Origin: Mucilaginibacter sp.
Lineage (GTDB): Bacteria; Bacteroidota; Bacteroidia; Sphingobacteriales; Sphingobacteriaceae
Reading direction: 5' to 3'
DNA: 64,000 nucleotides
Assembly (NCBI GenBank): GCA_028288025.1
Contig: JAQBOM010000013.1
Location: forward strand, 62,001-126,000
The notes beneath the pieces were generated by a model that worked only from the letters and a program-made list of their open reading frames with translations, was not told the DNA's origin and made no database searches. A program made the translations under genes and the position numbers. Shown one piece after another: positions 117-52,705 of this stretch. Position 1 is the first letter of the stretch. Each line of letters opens with the position of its first letter.

Positions 117-1490
117 CTACTTCTTAGTCGTGTTTAACAACTGAAAGCCAACCAGTTCGTCCCAGCGGGCGCCGGGTGGGTGATAGTATACAAGCAGCTG
201 ATAATCGTTTTCGGTTTCATAATGACTGCCGGTTAAAGCCGTATCATCCGGTTTACCTGTAGCTTTATCCACCCATACATAAGTATAATCATATACGCCC
301 TGTTTCAGCAACTGGGATATGACATACTTTCCGGTGGACGGATCAAAATGCAATTTGCTGTTGTCATCCAGCTTATAATCATTAAATCGTCCAACTATAT
401 ACAAGGCACCGGTAGCAGATGACTTTTTTGTCAGCAATGAAAAATATAGCCTTGTATAATCGGCATCGGTGCGGGGATCGGTGCCGTCCTGATTCAGGAT
501 ATAGAAACTGCCGTTGAGGTCGTACTGTAATGTATAGTTTGGCTGGTTCCGGTCGGCGTCGGTTAATAACAGTATGGTATTGGCGGTATCGCGGTAAATA
601 TGGGCTATATGCTCCGAATTCAGTTTAAGGCTTCGGGTATCAAAATGCAGGAATTCATTCCCGCCCGGGAAATCATTCATATTTACATCGTTATAGATCA
701 GCTGCGAACCGCGGATATAAGTAGGTTGGGTATTCCACTGTCCGGTTTCGCTACGGGCGTTTTGCATGATCAGCACACGAATGTCAGCCCCGGGATTTTG
801 AACCCGCAGGCTGCCGTAATTAAGGGTGAAATTTACCTTTTGATTGGTTTGTCTTGTCGACACATCATTTGAGGGTACTATTTCGGCAGCTATTGAAATT
901 TGCGGATTAACAACATATAAACGCCTTGTTAGTATCAACTTTGTTGGATCGCTATCCTCGTAAACTTTTAACACATAATTGCCGGCGACTTTTGGCGCAA
1001 TATTCTCATTTGGCAGCTTGAGCTCGTAGTGAGTATATTTTTGAATGGTGCCGGTTGAGTAGCTATAGCCTGTTATTTTATCGTCGGTGTAGTTGTGCAG
1101 GTATTCGGCCGGCGAAAGATTGGATGAGTTCCAGTTGGCATCGCAATGCTCAAGGGTATAATTATAGGTTTGCGTGCCGCCGCGCAGGTTATCGAACGCC
1201 AACAGTACTTTGTCGTTTGACCGTAGTGTAATAATGGGAAAAGAAGCTTGTTTGGCGGTATTGTAAAATTCAACGCTTTTTATTTCGGGGCGGTAGACGG
1301 TGTTATCATAGGATTGCGCAAAGGAGTTGAAGCTAACTATCAATAAGAATACAGCAATCGGCACTTTAAAAAACCACTTGTCATTGCGAGCGACAGCGTG
1401 GCAACCGCGAACTATGCAGGGCCGCCCTGCATAGTTCGCGGTTGCTTCGTCGTTCCTCCTCGCAATGAAATAATTTTTTATATGCGTCAT
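117..1490 (-). CDS. DUF5103-like secreted protein (type IX secretion-associated family in Bacteroidota); N-terminus carries an in-frame palindromic repeat
   Basis: Long ORF; signal-peptide-like segment [23 protein letters not shown]; content resembles DUF5103 ([12 protein letters not shown]..., [29 protein letters not shown]). Confidence 0.75.
1380..1468. repeat. Imperfect palindromic repeat, family A (TCATTGCGAG...CTCGCAATGA), inside the CDS
   Basis: Arms tcattgcgag..caaccgcgaactatgcagggc and its reverse complement tcattgcgagg..gcaaccgcgaactatgcagggc; related copy at 52611-52693 and partial copy at 50494-50520. Confidence 0.9.
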
Positions 1491-1547: not shown

Positions 1548-3470
1548 TTATGCTTCTAACTCCATTATCTGGTCAGCTAAAGCCTCCCATTGTAATTGTA
1601 CATGACCCAGCTCCAGTTTCTTCATTTCGTAATTTTTATTGACTTCATTTAGCTTAGGCAGATCATTGTATAACTTATCATCGGCCAACTCTGCTTCCAG
1701 TTGTTTTACGATTTTTTCCAGCGATGCGATCTGTTCTTCCAGCTTAGCCATATCCTGGTTTAGCTTTTTCAGCTGCTGCGATTTATTTTCAGACGGATGC
1801 TTAACTGGTTCAGCCTCTTTTTTCTCTTCCTTTTTAGGCTGCGGAATTGGCGCGGCGGCTTTTGGTTCCAGTTTGCGCTTGGCGTACCAAACGTCGAACT
1901 CGGCATAAGTGCCCGGGTATTGTTTGATTTGTTGGTCCTCAATAAACCATATTTTGTTGGCGACGTTATCGAGGAAATAACGGTCGTGCGAAACCACGAT
2001 AAACGTTCCTTCAAACTGCTCCAGCGCCTGTATCAATATGTTCACCGATTGAATATCCAGGTGGTTGGTGGGCTCATCAAGTATCAGGAAATTGGCGTCC
2101 GCGGTAAGCGCCTTTGCCAAAGCCACCCTTGATTTTTCGCCCCCGGATAATACTTTTATCTTTTTAAATACATCATCGCCCGTAAACAGGAACGAACCCA
2201 ATATGGACCGCAACTCGGTTTCGGTATGCTTTGGCGCGAACGACTGCAGTTCCTGCAGGGCTGTGCTTTCCAGGTGCAAGGCTTCCAGCTGGTGCTGGGC
2301 AAAAAAAGTTTCGGTTACGTTATGGCCAGTAACCATTTTGCCTTCAAAATCTTTATCGGCGTCGGCAATTATGCGCAGCAGGGTTGATTTACCTTTGCCG
2401 TTGGCGCCGATCAACGCTATTTTATCTCCTTTTTCAATTACCGCTTCAGCATTTGATAAAATATCGATGGCCGGATATTTTTTGGTGATGTTCTCCAGCG
2501 TTACCACGTGCCTGCCAGATTGCTTGGAGAAACGGAAGCTGAAGTTCACCGACGGGTTATCGTCATCCACATCATCCACACGCTCCAGCTTGTCCAAAGC
2601 TTTGATACGCGATTGAGCCATTTTAGCCTTGGATGCTTTCGCCCGGAAACGCTCGATCAAACGCTCTTCCTGCTTTATTTTCGACTGCTGGTTTTTAAAT
2701 TCACCGCGTTGGATATCTTCGCGCTGAGCCTTTTCTTCCAGGTAGAAAGAATAATTCCCGGCGTAAACGGTGAGCTTGCCTTTACGTGATTCAACCGTAC
2801 GGTTGATCACCTTATCCAAAAACCACCTATCGTGCGATACGATAACCACTGCGCCTTCAAAGGCTTTCAGATAATCTTCCAGCCATTGTATCGACGGTAA
2901 GTCAAGGTGGTTGGTAGGCTCATCCAATAATAAGATGTCAGGAGCTTGTAAAAGTATCTTGGCCAGCATCACGCGCATGCGCCAACCGCCCGAAAACTCG
3001 CTCAACTTGCGATGTGTATCCGGTTCGGTGAATCCCAAACCGGCTAAAATTTCGTGTGCTTTGTATTCGATGTTGTAACCGTCCAGTAACTCAAACTCAT
3101 GCTGTTTGTCGCTTAGCTTGTGCAGCAGGTCCTCGGTATAATCGGTCTCCAGCTTTTTAAGCAGGCTTTCTATTTCATCATGCAGCTGGTTCTGTCGCTC
3201 GAAAGCTTCCATGGCCACATGCAGTATATTTTTATCAGACGAGTACGAGAGCAGGTCCTGGTTAAGGTAGCCGATGGTCAGGTCCTTAGCCATGGATATG
3301 GTGCCCGAAGTAGGCGTATAATCGCCGACTATAATTTTTAAAAGGGTAGTTTTTCCAGTACCATTGGCGCCGATAAGGCCAATTTTTTCACCGGGTTTTA
3401 TATGCCAGTTAGCTTCATCGTATAATGCCCGCGCACCAATCTCAAACGTAAGGTTATTTATAGCTATCAT
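1548..3470 (-). CDS. ABC-F family ATP-binding protein
   Basis: Two ABC domains (GANGTGKTTLL, LSEFSGGWRMR, GANGKGKSTLL, LSGGEKSR), no TM segments; start taken at MIAINNLTF rather than the upstream Met of the ORF track. Confidence 0.9.
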   Translation of the reverse strand: MIAINNLTFEIGARALYDEANWHIKPGEKIGLIGANGTGKTTLLKIIVGDYTPTSGTISMAKDLTIGYLNQDLLSYSSDKNILHVAMEAFERQNQLHDEIESLLKKLETDYTEDLLHKLSDKQHEFELLDGYNIEYKAHEILAGLGFTEPDTHRKLSEFSGGWRMRVMLAKILLQAPDILLLDEPTNHLDLPSIQWLEDYLKAFEGAVVIVSHDRWFLDKVINRTVESRKGKLTVYAGNYSFYLEEKAQREDIQRGEFKNQQSKIKQEERLIERFRAKASKAKMAQSRIKALDKLERVDDVDDDNPSVNFSFRFSKQSGRHVVTLENITKKYPAIDILSNAEAVIEKGDKIALIGANGKGKSTLLRIIADADKDFEGKMVTGHNVTETFFAQHQLEALHLESTALQELQSFAPKHTETELRSILGSFLFTGDDVFKKIKVLSGGEKSRVALAKALTADANFLILDEPTNHLDIQSVNILIQALEQFEGTFIVVSHDRYFLDNVANKIWFIEDQQIKQYPGTYAEFDVWYAKRKLEPKAAAPIPQPKKEEKKEAEPVKHPSENKSQQLKKLNQDMAKLEEQIASLEKIVKQLEAELADDKLYNDLPKLNEVNKNYEMKKLELGHVQLQWEALADQIMELEA

Positions 3471-12942: not shown

Positions 12943-13079
12943 GCTCCCAAGCCGTTTACCTGTAAACCACCTTTCGCCTTTCACCCTTCGCCTTTCTCAA
13001 TAAACTTTTTCTCCCAACCAATTACATTTATTAATATATTTATAATATTCCATTACAGGCCAGCCATTTGATACCGCGA

Positions 13080-17040: not shown

Positions 17041-17215
17041 TTATGGTTAGTTGATTGGGTGAGTAGTTGATTAGGTTGATTAAGTTGGTAGGTGATTGGG
17101 TTGATTAAGTTGGATTAAGTGAGTAGTTGTCGATTCGTGCTATTTAATTCGCCCAACCCAATACGTAACCCAATCAAATCAATCCAATTCAATCAACAAT
17201 AGTTAATCAATGATC
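17041..17215. repeat. TTGATTGGGTTG-type low-complexity inverted repeat, copy 1
   Basis: Left half ttgattgggttgattaagttgg, core gtcgattcgtgctatttaattc, right half cccaacccaat..aatcaatccaattcaatcaac. Confidence 0.8.
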
Positions 17216-17400
17216 AAAGTAAATTTAATAGGCTAACTTACAGAGGATTAAATAATCAATTGAAAATATTCTATAAAGTCTATAGGAATTATAGATTAAT
17301 ACATATATTTGCCTCATGATCGCTCTTTATAAATGCTTAGCCGGAAAGCCATACCGGTAAGTGGTTTAGTCGTTTTATTTGATTATTAGTTTTTTTTAAA

Positions 17401-17469
17401 GTCGCGTGACCGAGAGGATAGGTGGGAGTCTGCAAAACCCCGTACGGCAGTTCGAATCTGCCCGCGACA
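17401..17469 (+). tRNA. Divergent tRNA-Cys-like gene (anticodon GCA), possibly non-canonical or pseudo-tRNA
   Basis: 6-bp acceptor GTCGCG/CGCGAC, T-arm GGCAG-TTCGAAT-CTGCC perfect, D-loop with GG, loop CTGCAAA, one A-C mismatch in anticodon stem, discriminator A instead of U. Confidence 0.6.
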
Positions 17470-17496
17470 TCTATAGTTGACTGACCTCGCTATTGG

Positions 17497-17690
17497 GTGG
17501 GTAGTTGATTGGGTTGGATTAAGTTGATTAAGTGAGTAGTTGATTAGGTTGGATTAAGTGAGTAGTTTCGATTTGCTCTATTTAATAAGCTTAACCCAGC
17601 TCAATCCAATCCAACCCAACCCAACCAAACTCAATCCAACCCAATCCAACCCAACTCAATCCAACCCAACCAATCAACCAATAACAAACT
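17497..17690. repeat. TTGATTGGGTTG-type low-complexity inverted repeat, copy 2
   Basis: Same orientation and same core (tcgatttgctctatttaat) as copy 1. Confidence 0.8.
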
Positions 17691-25931: not shown

Positions 25932-26996
25932 TTAGTTGAAACCGGTATCCCTAAGCCGGATGTAATCATCCAGCGTGTGCACATTCATTCCCTTATCTTT
26001 TATCTTTTTGATATACTCTGCGTTTACACCGTGATCGCGCAGCTCGCGGGCTTTATCGAGCGAAACATCGTTAAAACCGAGCGCGTGAATGCTTTTTATA
26101 AATTCTGGATTTACACCATGGTCCTTTAACTCCCGTGCTTTATCAAGCGTGATATCCTTATAACCCATTTGCTGAATGCTGCTGATAAACTGCGGGTTAA
26201 CACCATGATCTCTTAATTCCACCGCCTTGTCCAGCGATATCTTTTCATACCCCATTTTTTGAATGCTGGTTATAAACTCCGGCGTTACACCATGGTCGCG
26301 TAATTCCAGGGCCTTATCTAAAGGAATTTGCTCATGATAACCCATTTGGCGAAAACTGTTTACAAACCCCGCGTTCACGCCATGCTCGCGCAGTTCTACA
26401 ATTTTGTCGAGAGACTGGTGCCCGTAATCTTCTGTTTTAAAAAGCGCGAAATAGTCTTCCATCACCTTGCGGTTCAGATCTTGCTGTGCAAGGTCCCTTA
26501 ATTGCTGATTTGAAATACTGGCGTACCCGTTTTCTTTTAAAAATTCAAAGTAACCCTTGTTGATATCTGTAAGGAAAATATCCAGCATCAGTTCTTTATC
26601 CAGGTCCGAATAGCCCCTTTGCTGCAGGTACGATTTAAAAGCAGCATTCTCGGCAAATGTGTAAAACCCATGTCCTTTGCCGCCGGCAAATTCGCCTTTA
26701 AAGTTTATTGTGCCGGCTTCGCGGGTCAGCGCAAATGTTCCCTCGTTTCCGGTTGGCAACATGCCAGTTTCTGTTAACAGGAATGTTCTGCCGGTGTTCC
26801 AGTCTTCCCCGGTAAATTGGATATGAACTTTTTCGCCCGCGATATAGGCAACCCAGGTTCCCGGCACGTGACTGCCGCTGTTACCCGTTCTATGCATATT
26901 TTTAACGGCAACTTTTACATTTGCAGACTGCGCAAGGCTGGATAGTGCTGAAAACAGCACTGCAATAAATAGCCCGGCGATAATATTTTTTTTCAT
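25932..26996 (-). CDS. Secreted beta domain + 29-aa repeat protein (ELRDHGVNPxFI..)
   Basis: Signal peptide MKKNIIAGLFIAVLFSALSSLAQS; domain F.LTREAGTINFKGEFAGGKGHGFYTF; repeats ELRDHGVNPQFISSIQQMGYKDITLDKA. Confidence 0.8.
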   Translation of the reverse strand: MKKNIIAGLFIAVLFSALSSLAQSANVKVAVKNMHRTGNSGSHVPGTWVAYIAGEKVHIQFTGEDWNTGRTFLLTETGMLPTGNEGTFALTREAGTINFKGEFAGGKGHGFYTFAENAAFKSYLQQRGYSDLDKELMLDIFLTDINKGYFEFLKENGYASISNQQLRDLAQQDLNRKVMEDYFALFKTEDYGHQSLDKIVELREHGVNAGFVNSFRQMGYHEQIPLDKALELRDHGVTPEFITSIQKMGYEKISLDKAVELRDHGVNPQFISSIQQMGYKDITLDKARELKDHGVNPEFIKSIHALGFNDVSLDKARELRDHGVNAEYIKKIKDKGMNVHTLDDYIRLRDTGFN

Positions 26997-27067
26997 GACA
27001 TTATTCAAATTAACAGTACTAACAATTAACCTAATCAACTTAATGCAACCCAATCAACCAACCTCAA

Positions 27068-28606
27068 CTATTCACTATCCTTAAATGCATTTTTCAACCG
27101 CATATACTTCCGCAGGTCGTTTGACTTAAATCCTTTCCCCTGCATCGACGCTACATATTCGGGCGTAACGCCGGTTGATTTAAGGCCGGGCAGTTCATTT
27201 AACGGGATGTCGGTAAAGCCAAGCTTTTTGAATCCGTTGATATACTGCGGCGTAATACCCATTGATTTTAGGGGCAGAAGGCTGTGCAACGATATATCCT
27301 TATAGCCTGCTTCTTCAAACCCCCTGATATATTCAGGTGTAATGCCCATCGACTTTAACATGACCAGGTCGTGCGCCGGAATATTTTTATAACCAACAGC
27401 TTCAAAGCTTTTTATATAAGCACCATCGATGTTCGACGATTTCAATGAGATCAGGTCGTGAACCGGGATGTTTTTATAGCCCAGGTCCATGTATTCCTTT
27501 ACAAATTCCGGCGTAATGTTCATCGACTTCATGGCGGTAAGCTGATTGTAGGGAATATTATCATACCCCACTGCCTTAAATGAATTCACATACGCCGCAT
27601 CAATATTCATCGACTTATAGGCTACAAGCTGGTTAGCCGGAGGTAAACCACTCTCGCTATCGTCTTTGCGCAGACCCCTGATATAGTCGCCGGTAATGTG
27701 CTGCGATTTAAAACTTATCAGCTGGTTGAATGAAATATCTTTATACCCTGCATCGCGGATCTCTTTCACATAAGCCGCATCAATCTCCATCGATTTGCCG
27801 GCAACCAGGTGGTTGGGCGAAATATCGTTAAAGCCGTTCTCCTTCCACATTTTTATATAAGGCTCATCAATTTTCATCGACGCCATTGCTATCAGGTTAC
27901 CTCTCGACATATCTTTAAACCCGTTTCGCACCAGCATCTCTACATAGTTCCTTTTAAGGTTCACCACAAAAAAAGCAAACGCATTGCGCTCATCGTCGCC
28001 GGTTATGCCCTGGGTTTTTATATAATCATCAAATGCTTTATCAGCAACGAACTTATAGTGTCCATAACCCAGGTCATCGTCGAACTTGCCTGTAAACGTC
28101 ATGGTTCCGGCCTCTCTTTTTAGTGAGAATTCTCCTTTTTGGCCCCTGGGCAGCGACGGAAATTCGCTCAGCATAAAATCCGAATTGCTCGACCAGTGGT
28201 AGTTTTCATCATCGCTTCTGAATTCGATCATGATCTTATCGCCCTTAATGCTGGCAAACCAGCTCCCTTCATTGCGGTCAATGCCGGTAATATTCACATT
28301 AACGTCGGCGTTAACACCTATATTGATGTTCGGGATAACGATAGACGGTACCACAGCATTAACAACCGGGGTTACATTGGCGCTGACCGTTGAACCCATA
28401 ACCGGGTCAACAATTGCATTTATGGTTGACTTCACAATCGGTTTAACGCGGGTGTTAACCCGGGCATGTACCGCTTGGTTAATGTTGGTTGTTATAACAA
28501 CCGGGGTAACCGTTGCTTGTGCATTGGCGGCCGGATTGTTAAGGCAGCCCAGCAGCGGCACCAGGAAGAAATACTTCCTGAGTGCAGCGATAATTGGTTT
28601 TTTCAT
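27068..28606 (-). CDS. Secreted paralog of the BlaR1-like ectodomain with 29-aa repeats
   Basis: RKYFFLVPLLGCLNNPAANAQ leader; EGSWFASIKGDKIMIEFRSDDENYHWSSNSDFMLSEF; repeats LKSMGITPEYIRGFEEAGYKDISLHSLLP. Confidence 0.8.
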   Translation of the reverse strand: MKKPIIAALRKYFFLVPLLGCLNNPAANAQATVTPVVITTNINQAVHARVNTRVKPIVKSTINAIVDPVMGSTVSANVTPVVNAVVPSIVIPNINIGVNADVNVNITGIDRNEGSWFASIKGDKIMIEFRSDDENYHWSSNSDFMLSEFPSLPRGQKGEFSLKREAGTMTFTGKFDDDLGYGHYKFVADKAFDDYIKTQGITGDDERNAFAFFVVNLKRNYVEMLVRNGFKDMSRGNLIAMASMKIDEPYIKMWKENGFNDISPNHLVAGKSMEIDAAYVKEIRDAGYKDISFNQLISFKSQHITGDYIRGLRKDDSESGLPPANQLVAYKSMNIDAAYVNSFKAVGYDNIPYNQLTAMKSMNITPEFVKEYMDLGYKNIPVHDLISLKSSNIDGAYIKSFEAVGYKNIPAHDLVMLKSMGITPEYIRGFEEAGYKDISLHSLLPLKSMGITPQYINGFKKLGFTDIPLNELPGLKSTGVTPEYVASMQGKGFKSNDLRKYMRLKNAFKDSE

Positions 28607-28613
28607 AATTGAT

Positions 28614-31094
28614 TTATCTGAATGCGCTTTTTAGTTCAATGTATTTGTTTAGGTCGTCCGACTTAAAGCCCTTTTCTTTCATTTGGGTAACATAATCCGG
28701 GGTAACACCCATCGCTTTTAAGGAGGTGGCCTCGTCAAGCGTGATATTGTTATAACCGATCTTCCTGAAGCCTTCGATGAAATCAGCAGTTATGCCCAAT
28801 GCTTTTAACGATGAGATATGGTCAACCGAAATGTTTTTATAACCGATATCGCGGAAACTCTGGATATACTGCGGGGTGATACCCAGTGCTTTAATGGACG
28901 AAAGCTCATCTATCGGGATGTTTTTAATGCCGGCGCTTTCAAAGCTTTTAGCGTATTCAGGCGTTATCCCGAGTGACTTGATAGAGATCAGGTTGTCAAC
29001 CGAAATATTATGATAGCCGGCAGCTTGTAAACTTTCAATAAATTGAGGTGTCACACCCACCGCTTTCATGCCGCTCAGGTTATCGGCGGAGATATTTTTA
29101 TAGCCCAATGCCGCGAAGCTTTTTACAAACTCAGGGGTAACACCCAGCGATTTTAGCGATACAAGTCCTTCAGCCGGGATGTTTTTATATCCTGCGGCCC
29201 TGAAACCTTCGATATATGCCGGTGTAACGCCAACAGCTTTCATACCGGTTAGGTCGCTCAGTGAAACATTGGTATAACCTGCCTTTTGAATAGCACTAAC
29301 ATAGCTTTCATCCACATTCAGCGCTTTAACCGATACCACGTCATCGGCGGATAATTTATTTGCCGTCTGGCTATTTTTGCCGTTCGTTCCTGCTTTGGTA
29401 TCAGCGCCATGCAGCCCGGCGATATATTTACCGGTAACGCCGGTGGCTTTAAAGCTTACCAGTTGTTCAAAAGTAATATGTGTGTAACCGGCTTTGCGGA
29501 TCTCACTTACATAAGCGCCGTTAATCCCGAGCGCTTTGCCCGATACCAGCTCATCAGGCGTTAAAGTATAGCCCATCTCCTTCCAGAAACGAATGTAGGG
29601 GGCATCAACTTTAAGCGCGCCCATGGCAATCAGTTCATCTTTGGTAAGGTGCTTATAGCCATTGCTTTCCAGCATGGTAATATAATCCTTCCTGATATTG
29701 ATAATAAAAAACGCGAATTCATCCCCTTCTTCAACACCTTTAATACCATAGTTCGCCAATGTGTTTTTAAATTCGGTGCTGGCTTTAAATTTATAGTGGC
29801 CGTAACCCTGGCCGCCGTCAAATTTGCCGTTAAATGTTATCGTACCGGCTTCGCGGGTTAAGGTAAAATCACCTTTTTTATCGCGCGGCAGCGTCGAAAA
29901 TTCGCTCAGCATAAAATCGGAGTTGCTCGACCAGTTATGATCATCCGAATCACTGCGGAACTCAATTTTTACTTTATCATTTTTTATGGTAGCAAACCAG
30001 CTTCCCTCGGTTTCGGTATTATTTGACCAACGCGGATTATTTGAATGGCTTTTTACTTTGGGTTTAACGATCTGCGCATAAACTTGCGGGTCGTTTAGTG
30101 CGCAGGCCAGTATCCCCAGCAATGGCACCAGGAAAAAGTATTTCCACATAATATGGATGTTTGACCGTTTGGAGTTCATCATCAATATCCTTCTTTTTAA
30201 TAACGACTGGTTATAATTTGTGGTAATGCCCAACGATAAATGCGGGGCCGATACCTTTAGCAGGCTCATCTGGTAGCTCGACCGTTCGATCTCCTTATGT
30301 TCAAGCACGGCATCATCGGTTAAAAATTCCAGGTTGCTTTCCACTTCCGTGCGATAGAGCCAGGCAAAAGGGTTAAACCACTGCAGCACCAACACCAGCT
30401 CGGCTATCAAAATATCAAAGCTATGGCCTTGCCGGATGTGAATTTTTTCGTGGAGCAGTATCTGGCTGTAGGTATCCCAGTCATATTTTTCGGGATTGAT
30501 AAAAATGTTATTGCCAAATGAGCATGGCGCTTTATCGCCGGTTAGCTCAATAATGCGGAACTTGCCGTCCCTGATAACCGGTTTGGTATATGCCTGGAAA
30601 AGCAATACCACCAGCTGAAGCAAAAGGTTTAAACCAAATGCGGCAACACCTATCCAATAGATATAGAACAACCATTTGATAACGCGTGGTAATAACGATG
30701 TTGTTGCTGCGGTGGTCGTGGTAGTATTTTTTATGGCTGCTGCCTGAACGATAGTCGCTTGAGCGGCCCTTGCTATGGTATGATTAACTTTTGGCGATGC
30801 ATTGGCTGTTGCGCTTGCTGTAACAGCGGCTTTTATGGCAGCCTGCTTTTGCGTCACCACGTTTTGCGCATAGCTATTAACGGCATCAACCGCTGTATTA
30901 GCCGCAGGGGCGGGGCTTTCCCTGAAAGCCCATTGCTGCGGTATAGGTATAAGTGGCAGGCCAAAGGATAACGCCATGCAAAAAACCAATATCCACCGGT
31001 TTAATTTGTAAAAAGTTTCCTTTTGTAATAATACTTTATAAAACAGCAGGCAAACTGAAATAAGCAGCGCCACGTGCAAAATGTATGGTATCAT
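28614..31094 (-). CDS. BlaR1/MecR1-like M56 metallopeptidase with C-terminal beta domain and long 29-aa repeat array
   Basis: HEKIH zinc motif, FNPFAW, several TM segments, then EGSWFATIKNDKVKIEF and about 12 repeats such as SIKALGITPQYIQSFRDIGYKNISVDHIS. Confidence 0.88.
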   Translation of the reverse strand: MIPYILHVALLISVCLLFYKVLLQKETFYKLNRWILVFCMALSFGLPLIPIPQQWAFRESPAPAANTAVDAVNSYAQNVVTQKQAAIKAAVTASATANASPKVNHTIARAAQATIVQAAAIKNTTTTTAATTSLLPRVIKWLFYIYWIGVAAFGLNLLLQLVVLLFQAYTKPVIRDGKFRIIELTGDKAPCSFGNNIFINPEKYDWDTYSQILLHEKIHIRQGHSFDILIAELVLVLQWFNPFAWLYRTEVESNLEFLTDDAVLEHKEIERSSYQMSLLKVSAPHLSLGITTNYNQSLLKRRILMMNSKRSNIHIMWKYFFLVPLLGILACALNDPQVYAQIVKPKVKSHSNNPRWSNNTETEGSWFATIKNDKVKIEFRSDSDDHNWSSNSDFMLSEFSTLPRDKKGDFTLTREAGTITFNGKFDGGQGYGHYKFKASTEFKNTLANYGIKGVEEGDEFAFFIINIRKDYITMLESNGYKHLTKDELIAMGALKVDAPYIRFWKEMGYTLTPDELVSGKALGINGAYVSEIRKAGYTHITFEQLVSFKATGVTGKYIAGLHGADTKAGTNGKNSQTANKLSADDVVSVKALNVDESYVSAIQKAGYTNVSLSDLTGMKAVGVTPAYIEGFRAAGYKNIPAEGLVSLKSLGVTPEFVKSFAALGYKNISADNLSGMKAVGVTPQFIESLQAAGYHNISVDNLISIKSLGITPEYAKSFESAGIKNIPIDELSSIKALGITPQYIQSFRDIGYKNISVDHISSLKALGITADFIEGFRKIGYNNITLDEATSLKAMGVTPDYVTQMKEKGFKSDDLNKYIELKSAFR

Positions 31095-39139: not shown

Positions 39140-39172
39140 AGACTTACGAAGTTTTCAAAACTTCGTAAGTCT
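39140..39172. repeat. 33-bp perfect palindrome AGACTTACGAAGTTTT-C-AAAACTTCGTAAGTCT
   Basis: 16-1-16 geometry; near-identical copy at 60174-60206. Confidence 0.9.
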
Positions 39173-39220
39173 TTCACCTTTCACCTTTCACCTTTCACCT
39201 TTCACCTTTCACCTTTCACC
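39172..39220. repeat. Heptanucleotide tandem repeat (TTTCACC)x7
   Basis: Seven perfect TTTCACC units directly after the palindrome, ending next to the stop of 39222-39938. Confidence 0.95.
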
Positions 39221-39221
39221 A

Positions 39222-39938
39222 TTAATATTGAATTTGCTTCCGGTATGACGTTGTTGCGCCGCCAACTGCAAATTTTACGCCTAGTGTAAACTGCGAGTAG
39301 ACATCATGGTGGCCGTTGCCCGTTGAAAAACCATCCAGTTCATCTCCTAATACATAATTGTATCCGTAACCCAGGTCGACTTTAAAGCTGGGTTGGTTAT
39401 ATTTATTAAAAAGTTTAAACTCATAACCTATCCGCAACGGGATAAAAGGTTCCTGGCTGTTATTCTGGCCATCGGTGAAAAATCCCGGTACCTGGTGCGA
39501 GTACCTGCTGATGGAGGTAATGCGGTTAACTACAAATCCAAAACCGGCAGAGATGTACAGGTTTTTAAGCGCGTTGTACAAACGGTTATTGGAATAATCT
39601 ATCAATTCGCCGGCTTGAATTTGCCCCCTGAGTAAAAAAGCGCTGAAGTCGTTGTTGAACTGCATGCCGCTTTTTGATTTCAAAGAGTCGCCGCCCCTGA
39701 GCTTGCCCAGCTGGGCCTCAAAAACAAAATTCGTATAGGGGGTTGCGTTATAAGTCAAATTAAAATGAATGGATTGGGTTGAAGTTGTCGTTTCGGGGTT
39801 ACCATGTACAGTATTGAAACCAACCGCTGTGCCGATGTCATACTGCGAAAAGTTGTATCCCAATTGCGCTTTGGCAATTAACGTTATACAACAAACAAAT
39901 AAGGTTAAAAATGCTGTTTTAGTAATCAGTTTTATCAT
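39222..39938 (-). CDS. Outer-membrane beta-barrel-like hypothetical protein
   Basis: Signal peptide, LGYNFSQYDIGTAVGFN, RIGYEFKLF, LGVKFAVGG. Confidence 0.75.
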   Translation of the reverse strand: MIKLITKTAFLTLFVCCITLIAKAQLGYNFSQYDIGTAVGFNTVHGNPETTTSTQSIHFNLTYNATPYTNFVFEAQLGKLRGGDSLKSKSGMQFNNDFSAFLLRGQIQAGELIDYSNNRLYNALKNLYISAGFGFVVNRITSISRYSHQVPGFFTDGQNNSQEPFIPLRIGYEFKLFNKYNQPSFKVDLGYGYNYVLGDELDGFSTGNGHHDVYSQFTLGVKFAVGGATTSYRKQIQY

Positions 39939-49593: not shown

Positions 49594-50481
49594 ATGCTAT
49601 CACTAAAAGTATCCGACCTCTCAATTCCCGAACTGCATAACTACCTGCAATACGCCATTGCGCCGCGGCCGATCTGTTTTGCATCAACGATTGATAAGGC
49701 GGGTAATATCAACCTTAGCCCGTTTAGTTTTTTTAATTTGTTTAGTACCAATCCGCCGGTTTGCGTTTTTTCACCATCGCGGAGAGTGAGAGATAACACC
49801 ACCAAGCATTCACTTGAAAACCTGCATGAAGTGCCCGAATGCGTCATCAATATCGTGAACTATGCTATGGTGCAGCAGGTGTCTTTGGCAAGCGTAGAAT
49901 ATCCAAAAAGCATTAACGAATTTATAAAATCAGGATTTACCATGCTGCCGTCGGAATTGGTAAAGCCACCCCGGGTAGCCGAGTCACCGGTTCAGTTTGA
50001 ATGCGTGGTGAACGAAATAAAATCATTGGGGAATACACCGGGCGCTGGTAACCTGGTCATCGCCGAGATCAAGCTTATGCATATCAACGAGGCCATTTTG
50101 GATGCAGATGGAAAGATAGACCAGGAAAAAATCGACCATGTGGCACGCCTCGGCGGCGACTGGTATTGCCGGGTTACCCCGGATAATCTTTTTAAGGTTG
50201 CCAAACCTGTTAAAACTGTCGGCATTGGTGTTGATGCTATTCCATTTGCTATTCGTAATTCTAAAATACTAACGGGCAACAACCTCGGCCAGCTTGGTAA
50301 TGTGGAAACTTTGCCTGCCGATGTTGAAATTGAGGCATACGCCCAATTGCCCGAAATAAAAGATGTATTAGACGCAACATTCGGCGATGCATCAACGCGC
50401 GAAACACAATTGCATTTAAAAGCCAAACAACTGTTGGATGCAGGAAAAGTGGCCGAGGCCTGGAAGCTATTGTTGCTGTAG
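49594..50481 (+). CDS. Flavin reductase family (FMN-binding split barrel) protein
   Basis: AIAPRPICFASTIDKAGNINLSPFSFFNLFSTNPPVCVFSPS. Confidence 0.87.
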   Translation: MLSLKVSDLSIPELHNYLQYAIAPRPICFASTIDKAGNINLSPFSFFNLFSTNPPVCVFSPSRRVRDNTTKHSLENLHEVPECVINIVNYAMVQQVSLASVEYPKSINEFIKSGFTMLPSELVKPPRVAESPVQFECVVNEIKSLGNTPGAGNLVIAEIKLMHINEAILDADGKIDQEKIDHVARLGGDWYCRVTPDNLFKVAKPVKTVGIGVDAIPFAIRNSKILTGNNLGQLGNVETLPADVEIEAYAQLPEIKDVLDATFGDASTRETQLHLKAKQLLDAGKVAEAWKLLLL

Positions 50482-50493
50482 CACTCTCAAACC

Positions 50494-50520
50494 GTCATTG
50501 CGAGGAACGAAGCAATCTAT
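50494..50520. repeat. Partial family A repeat (GTCATTGCGAGGAACGAAGCAATCTAT)
   Basis: Matches the left arm of 52611-52693. Confidence 0.7.
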
Positions 50521-52588: not shown

Positions 52589-52610
52589 TTTGATTTACGA
52601 TTAATGTTAT

Positions 52611-52693
52611 GTCATTGCGAGGTACGAAGCAATCGCGAACTTTGCAAGACCGCTCTGTAGGTTCGCGATTGCCGCGCTATCGCTCGCAATGAC
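52611..52693. repeat. Full-length family A palindromic repeat
   Basis: gtcattgcgaggtacgaagcaatcgcgaac...gttcgcgattgccgcgctatcgctcgcaatgac. Confidence 0.88.
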
Positions 52694-52705
52694 ATAGCTT
52701 TATTA

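Follow-up and report, generated by a model that had tools for sequence, protein, structure and literature searches.

The DNA analyzed here, referred to as the window, is a 64,000-nucleotide stretch of a Mucilaginibacter genome of 4.45 Mb, a 55-contig draft of 92% completeness. Near its first letter lie two genes on the reverse strand, an ABC-F ATPase gene and, behind it, a gene for a type of secretion-system protein, the T9SS plug (Table 1). The product of the latter, which read as originally predicted, matched PF17116 (T9SS_plug_1st) over residues 70 to 194 (E = 7.4e-43). The spacer that separates the ABC-F stop from the plug ATG has a AATTCCGAAATC/GGATTTCGGAATTCGG motif (1501-1555), and like motifs were present in this spacer in L205, L207, and L021. 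Within the plug open reading frame (ORF), close to its start, lies a palindrome with a core of 88 nt (1381-1468), and the prediction that this palindrome is in frame was borne out. The element ends in an intact TGTC at 1379-1382 and a degenerate TTTC at 1467-1470, and its predicted RNA fold of −60 kcal/mol (z = −9.9) was equaled by none of 200 shuffled sequences.

Table 1. Features of the plug locus and related elements in the window
Feature	Position	Strand	Basis or remark
T9SS plug protein ORF, 457 aa, ATG at 1488-1490	117..1490	-	ORF list
ABC-F ATPase gene, immediately upstream of the plug gene	1548..3470	-	junction kept in nearly all genus orthologs
Family A element (CGTC-type REP doublet), 92 nt including terminal tetranucleotides	1379..1470	.	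sequence, fold, family
Outer stem, 8 bp, ATTGCGAG / CTCGCAAT	1383-1390 and 1459-1466 (span 1383..1466)	.	
Inner stem, perfect 21-bp inverted repeat GCAACCGCGAACTATGCAGGG, 3-nt loop	1401..1445	.	
Post-repeat segment, 21 aa	1317..1379	-	hydrophobic core and cleavage region; length equals the whole signal peptide of clean orthologs
GTG, sole alternative in-frame start after the repeat leaving at least 15 aa	1362..1364	-	
Second full family A copy, intergenic (core 52612-52692)	52610..52694	.	
Solo half unit CGTCATTGCGAGGAACGAAGCAATC, just past the stop of ORF 49594-50481	50493..50517	+	

The original prediction held the in-frame block to be exactly the repeat found between genes at 52611-52693. 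The identity was not exact: the intergenic core is 81 nt long, and 70 of 80 aligned bases (87.5%) were identical, with 9 further gap positions. Judging from their letters, the two copies are members of one family with differing arm modules, which we define as family A. Family A is dispersed through the genome, as TCATTGCGAG occurred 96 times, compared with 3 for a reversed control, and full head-to-head doublets numbered 18, with 0 in the control. Family A occupies about 60 sites, nearly all of them between genes. The head preceding ATTGCGAG was TGTC at 46 and CGTC at 43 of the 94 distinct ends (89 in total), and the end of the element reads CTCGCAATGAC, which contains ATGAC. Units begin with AT, and single units fold to 5 bp or a bulged 8 bp. 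Three repeat-rich relatives contain 84, 104, and 201 full dimers. An Rfam search matched only a tRNA, and an exact-sequence search of the literature gave no match. Two Y1_Tnp proteins are encoded in the window genome, and a RAYT link for family A was rejected because ATTGCGAG was absent from the 4 to 5 kb around either gene.

Repeats of other kinds were also seen. Inverted repeats of 35 nt (ATAGCGATGGGTTTGAAACCCATCGCTAT), unrelated to family A, lie at 2034-2068 and 2529-2563 of L361, near a Y1_Tnp gene of the window genome. In the window itself, adjacent reverse-strand ORFs at 25932-31094 carry an 87-nt (29-aa) periodic repeat, and the start of the last of them (28614-31094) resembles an M56/BlaR1-type membrane peptidase. 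An intergenic array of the heptamer CACCTTT occupies 39161-39230, with a second degenerate stretch at 12968-13009, and imperfect AT-rich repeats of the GATTGGGTGGGTAGTTGATTAAGTT type are found at 17054-17568.

A search of 151 genomes of the genus gave 145 plug orthologs, from which 144 distinct N termini were read. Palindrome-derived sequence was present in frame between the start and the hydrophobic core in 26 of the 144, with three more uncertain (L258, which is cut by a contig end, L318, and L319), several of these classifications having been made by eye. Most orthologs have a short signal peptide with a median of 19 aa, such as MRKHYYLLVLLFTTLRGFAQ, and the captured orthologs have a median of 55 aa. 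Three unrelated palindrome families were found at the site: family A (ATTGCGAG), family B (CATGCTGAGG type), and family C (CCCTCTCGAGAGGG type). In the closest relative, L203 (97% identity across 262 columns), the site is occupied by family B instead of the family A seen in the window gene. The N terminus of Mucilaginibacter sp. OK283 (L073) is the same as that of L026, with the predicted repeat-encoded peptide MKPVIARYEAIPNYTR.

The original prediction placed the palindrome inside a signal peptide. The in-frame block is real, and it lies where the 5′ spacer meets the signal peptide. A different native start in orthologs without the repeat was to refute the prediction, and in part such orthologs do so: they begin right at the hydrophobic core (MRKHYYLL..., MKWLIVLG...), and thus the insertion point corresponds to the start codon and not to an internal position of the signal peptide. 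Moreover, the post-repeat segment of the window gene lacks only a start codon by comparison with a normal signal peptide, and because its length matches the normal one, the insertion would have occurred at the old start codon. The MTHIKNY that precedes the repeat is probably recruited spacer and not native signal peptide. We found no empty-site relative of the window gene itself among the genus orthologs, and a landing at the native start codon, rather than within the signal peptide, is most likely from the comparisons above.

Insertion points could be read in other members of the genus. Comparison of L286 with L277, L287, and L042 places the element at the native start codon. In L300, L313, L311, and L291, the ATG arises where an A adjoins TGTCATTGCGAG from the element itself (or the decayed form TGTCATTTCGAG); the start reads MSLRG or MSFRV, and the homologous ATG stays in frame despite decay of the palindrome. 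A family C element lies behind an MKKAL or MKQAF start in L035 and L250, and the clean ortholog L252 has that start too. L035 (G024) appears to encode a first signal peptide that is complete in itself (MKKALYLYFLHILSRISNSFA), then the family C insert, and then a second hydrophobic core with a cleavage site.

The repeat could be either coding sequence or an untranslated leader, a 5′ untranslated-region hairpin with initiation at the downstream GTG or at a nonstandard start. Consistent with a leader, that GTG is present in the window gene, the hairpin starts 22 nt after the ATG, and most of the N-terminal REPs of P. putida, C. koseri, and S. maltophilia were judged noncoding, their translation being doubted since a downstream start could not be excluded (Di Nocera 2013, PMC3733652). 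Initiation at the GTG, however, would yield a 16-aa signal peptide with no K or R before the core, and such a start is unlikely for the window gene. Moreover, nine orthologs in a like situation (L207, L215, L230, L300, L313, L311, L291, L035, and L258) offer no ATG, GTG, or TTG downstream of the repeat from which a signal peptide of at least 15 aa could begin, and the repeat must therefore be translated there. Of the 26 captured orthologs, 25 have a K or R in the 15 residues that precede the core, often in the repeat-encoded part only. Codon-position counts in shared insertions revealed no clear purifying selection acting on the residues that the repeat encodes. We consider it unlikely that the repeat is an untranslated leader. 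A hint of translational coupling, in which the start lay near the ABC-F stop in 8 of 26 captured versus 2 of 90 clean orthologs, is not claimed, as part of the difference is arithmetic and a single clade of four contributes to it.

Another way in which a palindrome could come to lie in frame is by chance, if the junction were an intergenic sink for repeats, the protein were unaffected, and the gene were in no way special. Family A was found within 400 nt upstream of 41 of 144 plug genes, compared with 0 of 30 PorV and 3 of 30 OmpH genes, the control loci being the 30 best matches of each family rather than a random draw. The junction is thus indeed a sink, and most frames of the element are open. 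Upstream of other genes, however, family A nearly always spares the native ATG, which at the plug gene has been lost in many lineages. In-frame capture was seen in none of 29 PorV and none of 27 OmpH N termini, secreted-protein genes of the same genus (0 of 56 in all; Fisher p = 6e-5 against the plug gene, uncorrected for relatedness). When 45 full-length elements were drawn in map order from the three repeat-rich relatives, none proved to be captured, and all lay outside ATG-started genes; 3 of the 45 are open into a gene, each leaving an ATG 6 to 19 codons downstream and none upstream. Fourteen other sites, chosen for their long open frames, looked like captures, and all were rejected as intergenic with the native ATG downstream. 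Among the family A sites of the window genome, the plug gene alone was clearly captured. In-frame insertion of family A is rare elsewhere and concentrated in the plug gene, and a mere chance match of frame seems to us rather improbable.

A single in-frame insertion in the ancestor of the genus, since diverged and lost in the clean species, has a precedent in the proposal made for RPE-4/6/7. Some insertions are indeed common by descent, namely, those of L300, L313, L311, and L291 and those of L026, L265, and L253. Moreover, L230 and L232 carry a near-identical captured repeat, including the nonpalindromic loop, yet are not sisters on the tree, and each stands beside a clean relative (L227 and L234); either the repeat was lost twice or the signal region was transferred. 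Against one ancient event, families A, B, and C share no sequence relationship, clean sisters that keep a conserved short signal peptide are scattered among the captured species, and L286 and L035 have clear empty-site relatives. On a tree built from the ABC-F C terminus and 62 plug residues, the captured state required at least 18 changes, 6 of them forced by well-supported branches. We conclude that independent captures are fewer than 26, as some captured states share ancestry, and that a single ancient insertion is very unlikely. An assembly artefact or a decaying pseudogene, which the draft state and completeness of the genome might suggest, is hardly credible, as the full-length ORF contains no stops and near-complete genomes show captures of a similar kind.

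We think it probable that a REP doublet was captured at the start of the plug gene, that the upstream ATG is now used, and that the junction is a recurrent capture site for several families. In the window species, a REP doublet of the CGTC type, whose two hairpin units are joined head to head into a single palindrome, would have landed at the 5′ end of the plug gene, within the short spacer that separates it from the ABC-F gene, and would have displaced the native start codon. The element is open in the frame that runs from the upstream ATG at 1490 into the former signal-peptide core, and for that reason the plug gene would have stayed in use. Translation from this ATG through the repeat would yield a signal peptide about 58 aa long, in which the n-region, including Arg and Lys, would be largely repeat encoded; behind the repeat, the Sec-type hydrophobic core and the cleavage site are intact. 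Across Mucilaginibacter, the junction keeps gathering palindromes of several unrelated families, many of them captured as coding sequence, and in some species the ATG comes from the end of the element itself. The element and its family membership, the open frame, the repeated occurrence at this site, and the control results were observed directly; for the window species, we infer translation through the repeat and normal export of the product, as well as the way in which the element moves. Evenly poised, in our judgment, is the broader proposal that the ABC-F/T9SS-plug junction is a genus-wide site of repeated signal-peptide renewal, at which palindromes of unrelated families arrive at the start codon, some supply a new start, and they become a working n-region, possibly tuning translation through the hairpin.

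The genus thus offers a record of selfish palindromes turning into coding sequence, with empty, captured, and decayed captured sites. The nine orthologs without a standard alternative start bear on the doubt over translation of N-terminal REPs (PMC3733652). Both the start-site annotation of such genes and the idea of near-free variation in signal-peptide n-regions are now directly testable.

In-frame palindromes in bacterial genes are already known from Rickettsia and from other REP-bearing species. Repeated capture of several families at the signal peptide of one gene across a genus was not found described in the openly searchable literature. By its [C/T]GTC heads and head-to-head doublets, family A matches the CGTC superfamily of REPs, in which a unit has an unpaired CGTC (or TGTC/CCTC) head, an 8- to 9-bp stem beginning with AT, and a loop of 4 to 5 nt, CGTC is often TGTC, and head-to-head dimers dominate (PMC3733652). 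That superfamily is likewise mostly intergenic, known in Bacteroidetes, not associated with a transposase gene, and occasionally intragenic, including at N termini, and it counts RPE-4 and RPE-6 of R. conorii among its members. Against its stem of 8 to 9 bp, single family A units fold to 5 bp or to a bulged stem, and recurrent capture of several families at one signal peptide is not described in that paper.

The original prediction likened the element to Rickettsia palindromic elements. The likeness stands for the [C/T]GTC head (89 of 94 ends) and for the ATGAC at the end, a motif described for RPE-4/6/7 (PMC3767692), the comparison of family A with RPE-4 and RPE-6 being one of described motifs rather than a letter-to-letter alignment. 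It extends (PMC3767692; Ogata 2000, 2002 via PMC10969869) to palindromes in frame in coding genes and to different element groups at one locus among orthologs. It does not extend to distribution: Rickettsia belongs to another phylum and its elements lie inside many unrelated genes, whereas insertion here is concentrated at the 5′ end of essentially one gene, and sister species are clean. GTAG-type REP/RAYT systems also form short dispersed palindromic doublets between genes, and the window genome has its two Y1_Tnp proteins, but family A has no GTAG head and no copies flanking a Y1_Tnp (RAYT) gene. Finally, different REPs occur at about one site of the orthologous recB gene of Xanthomonas (in PMC3733652); that case concerns two species and a cytoplasmic enzyme, whereas the captures described here concern dozens of species and a signal peptide.
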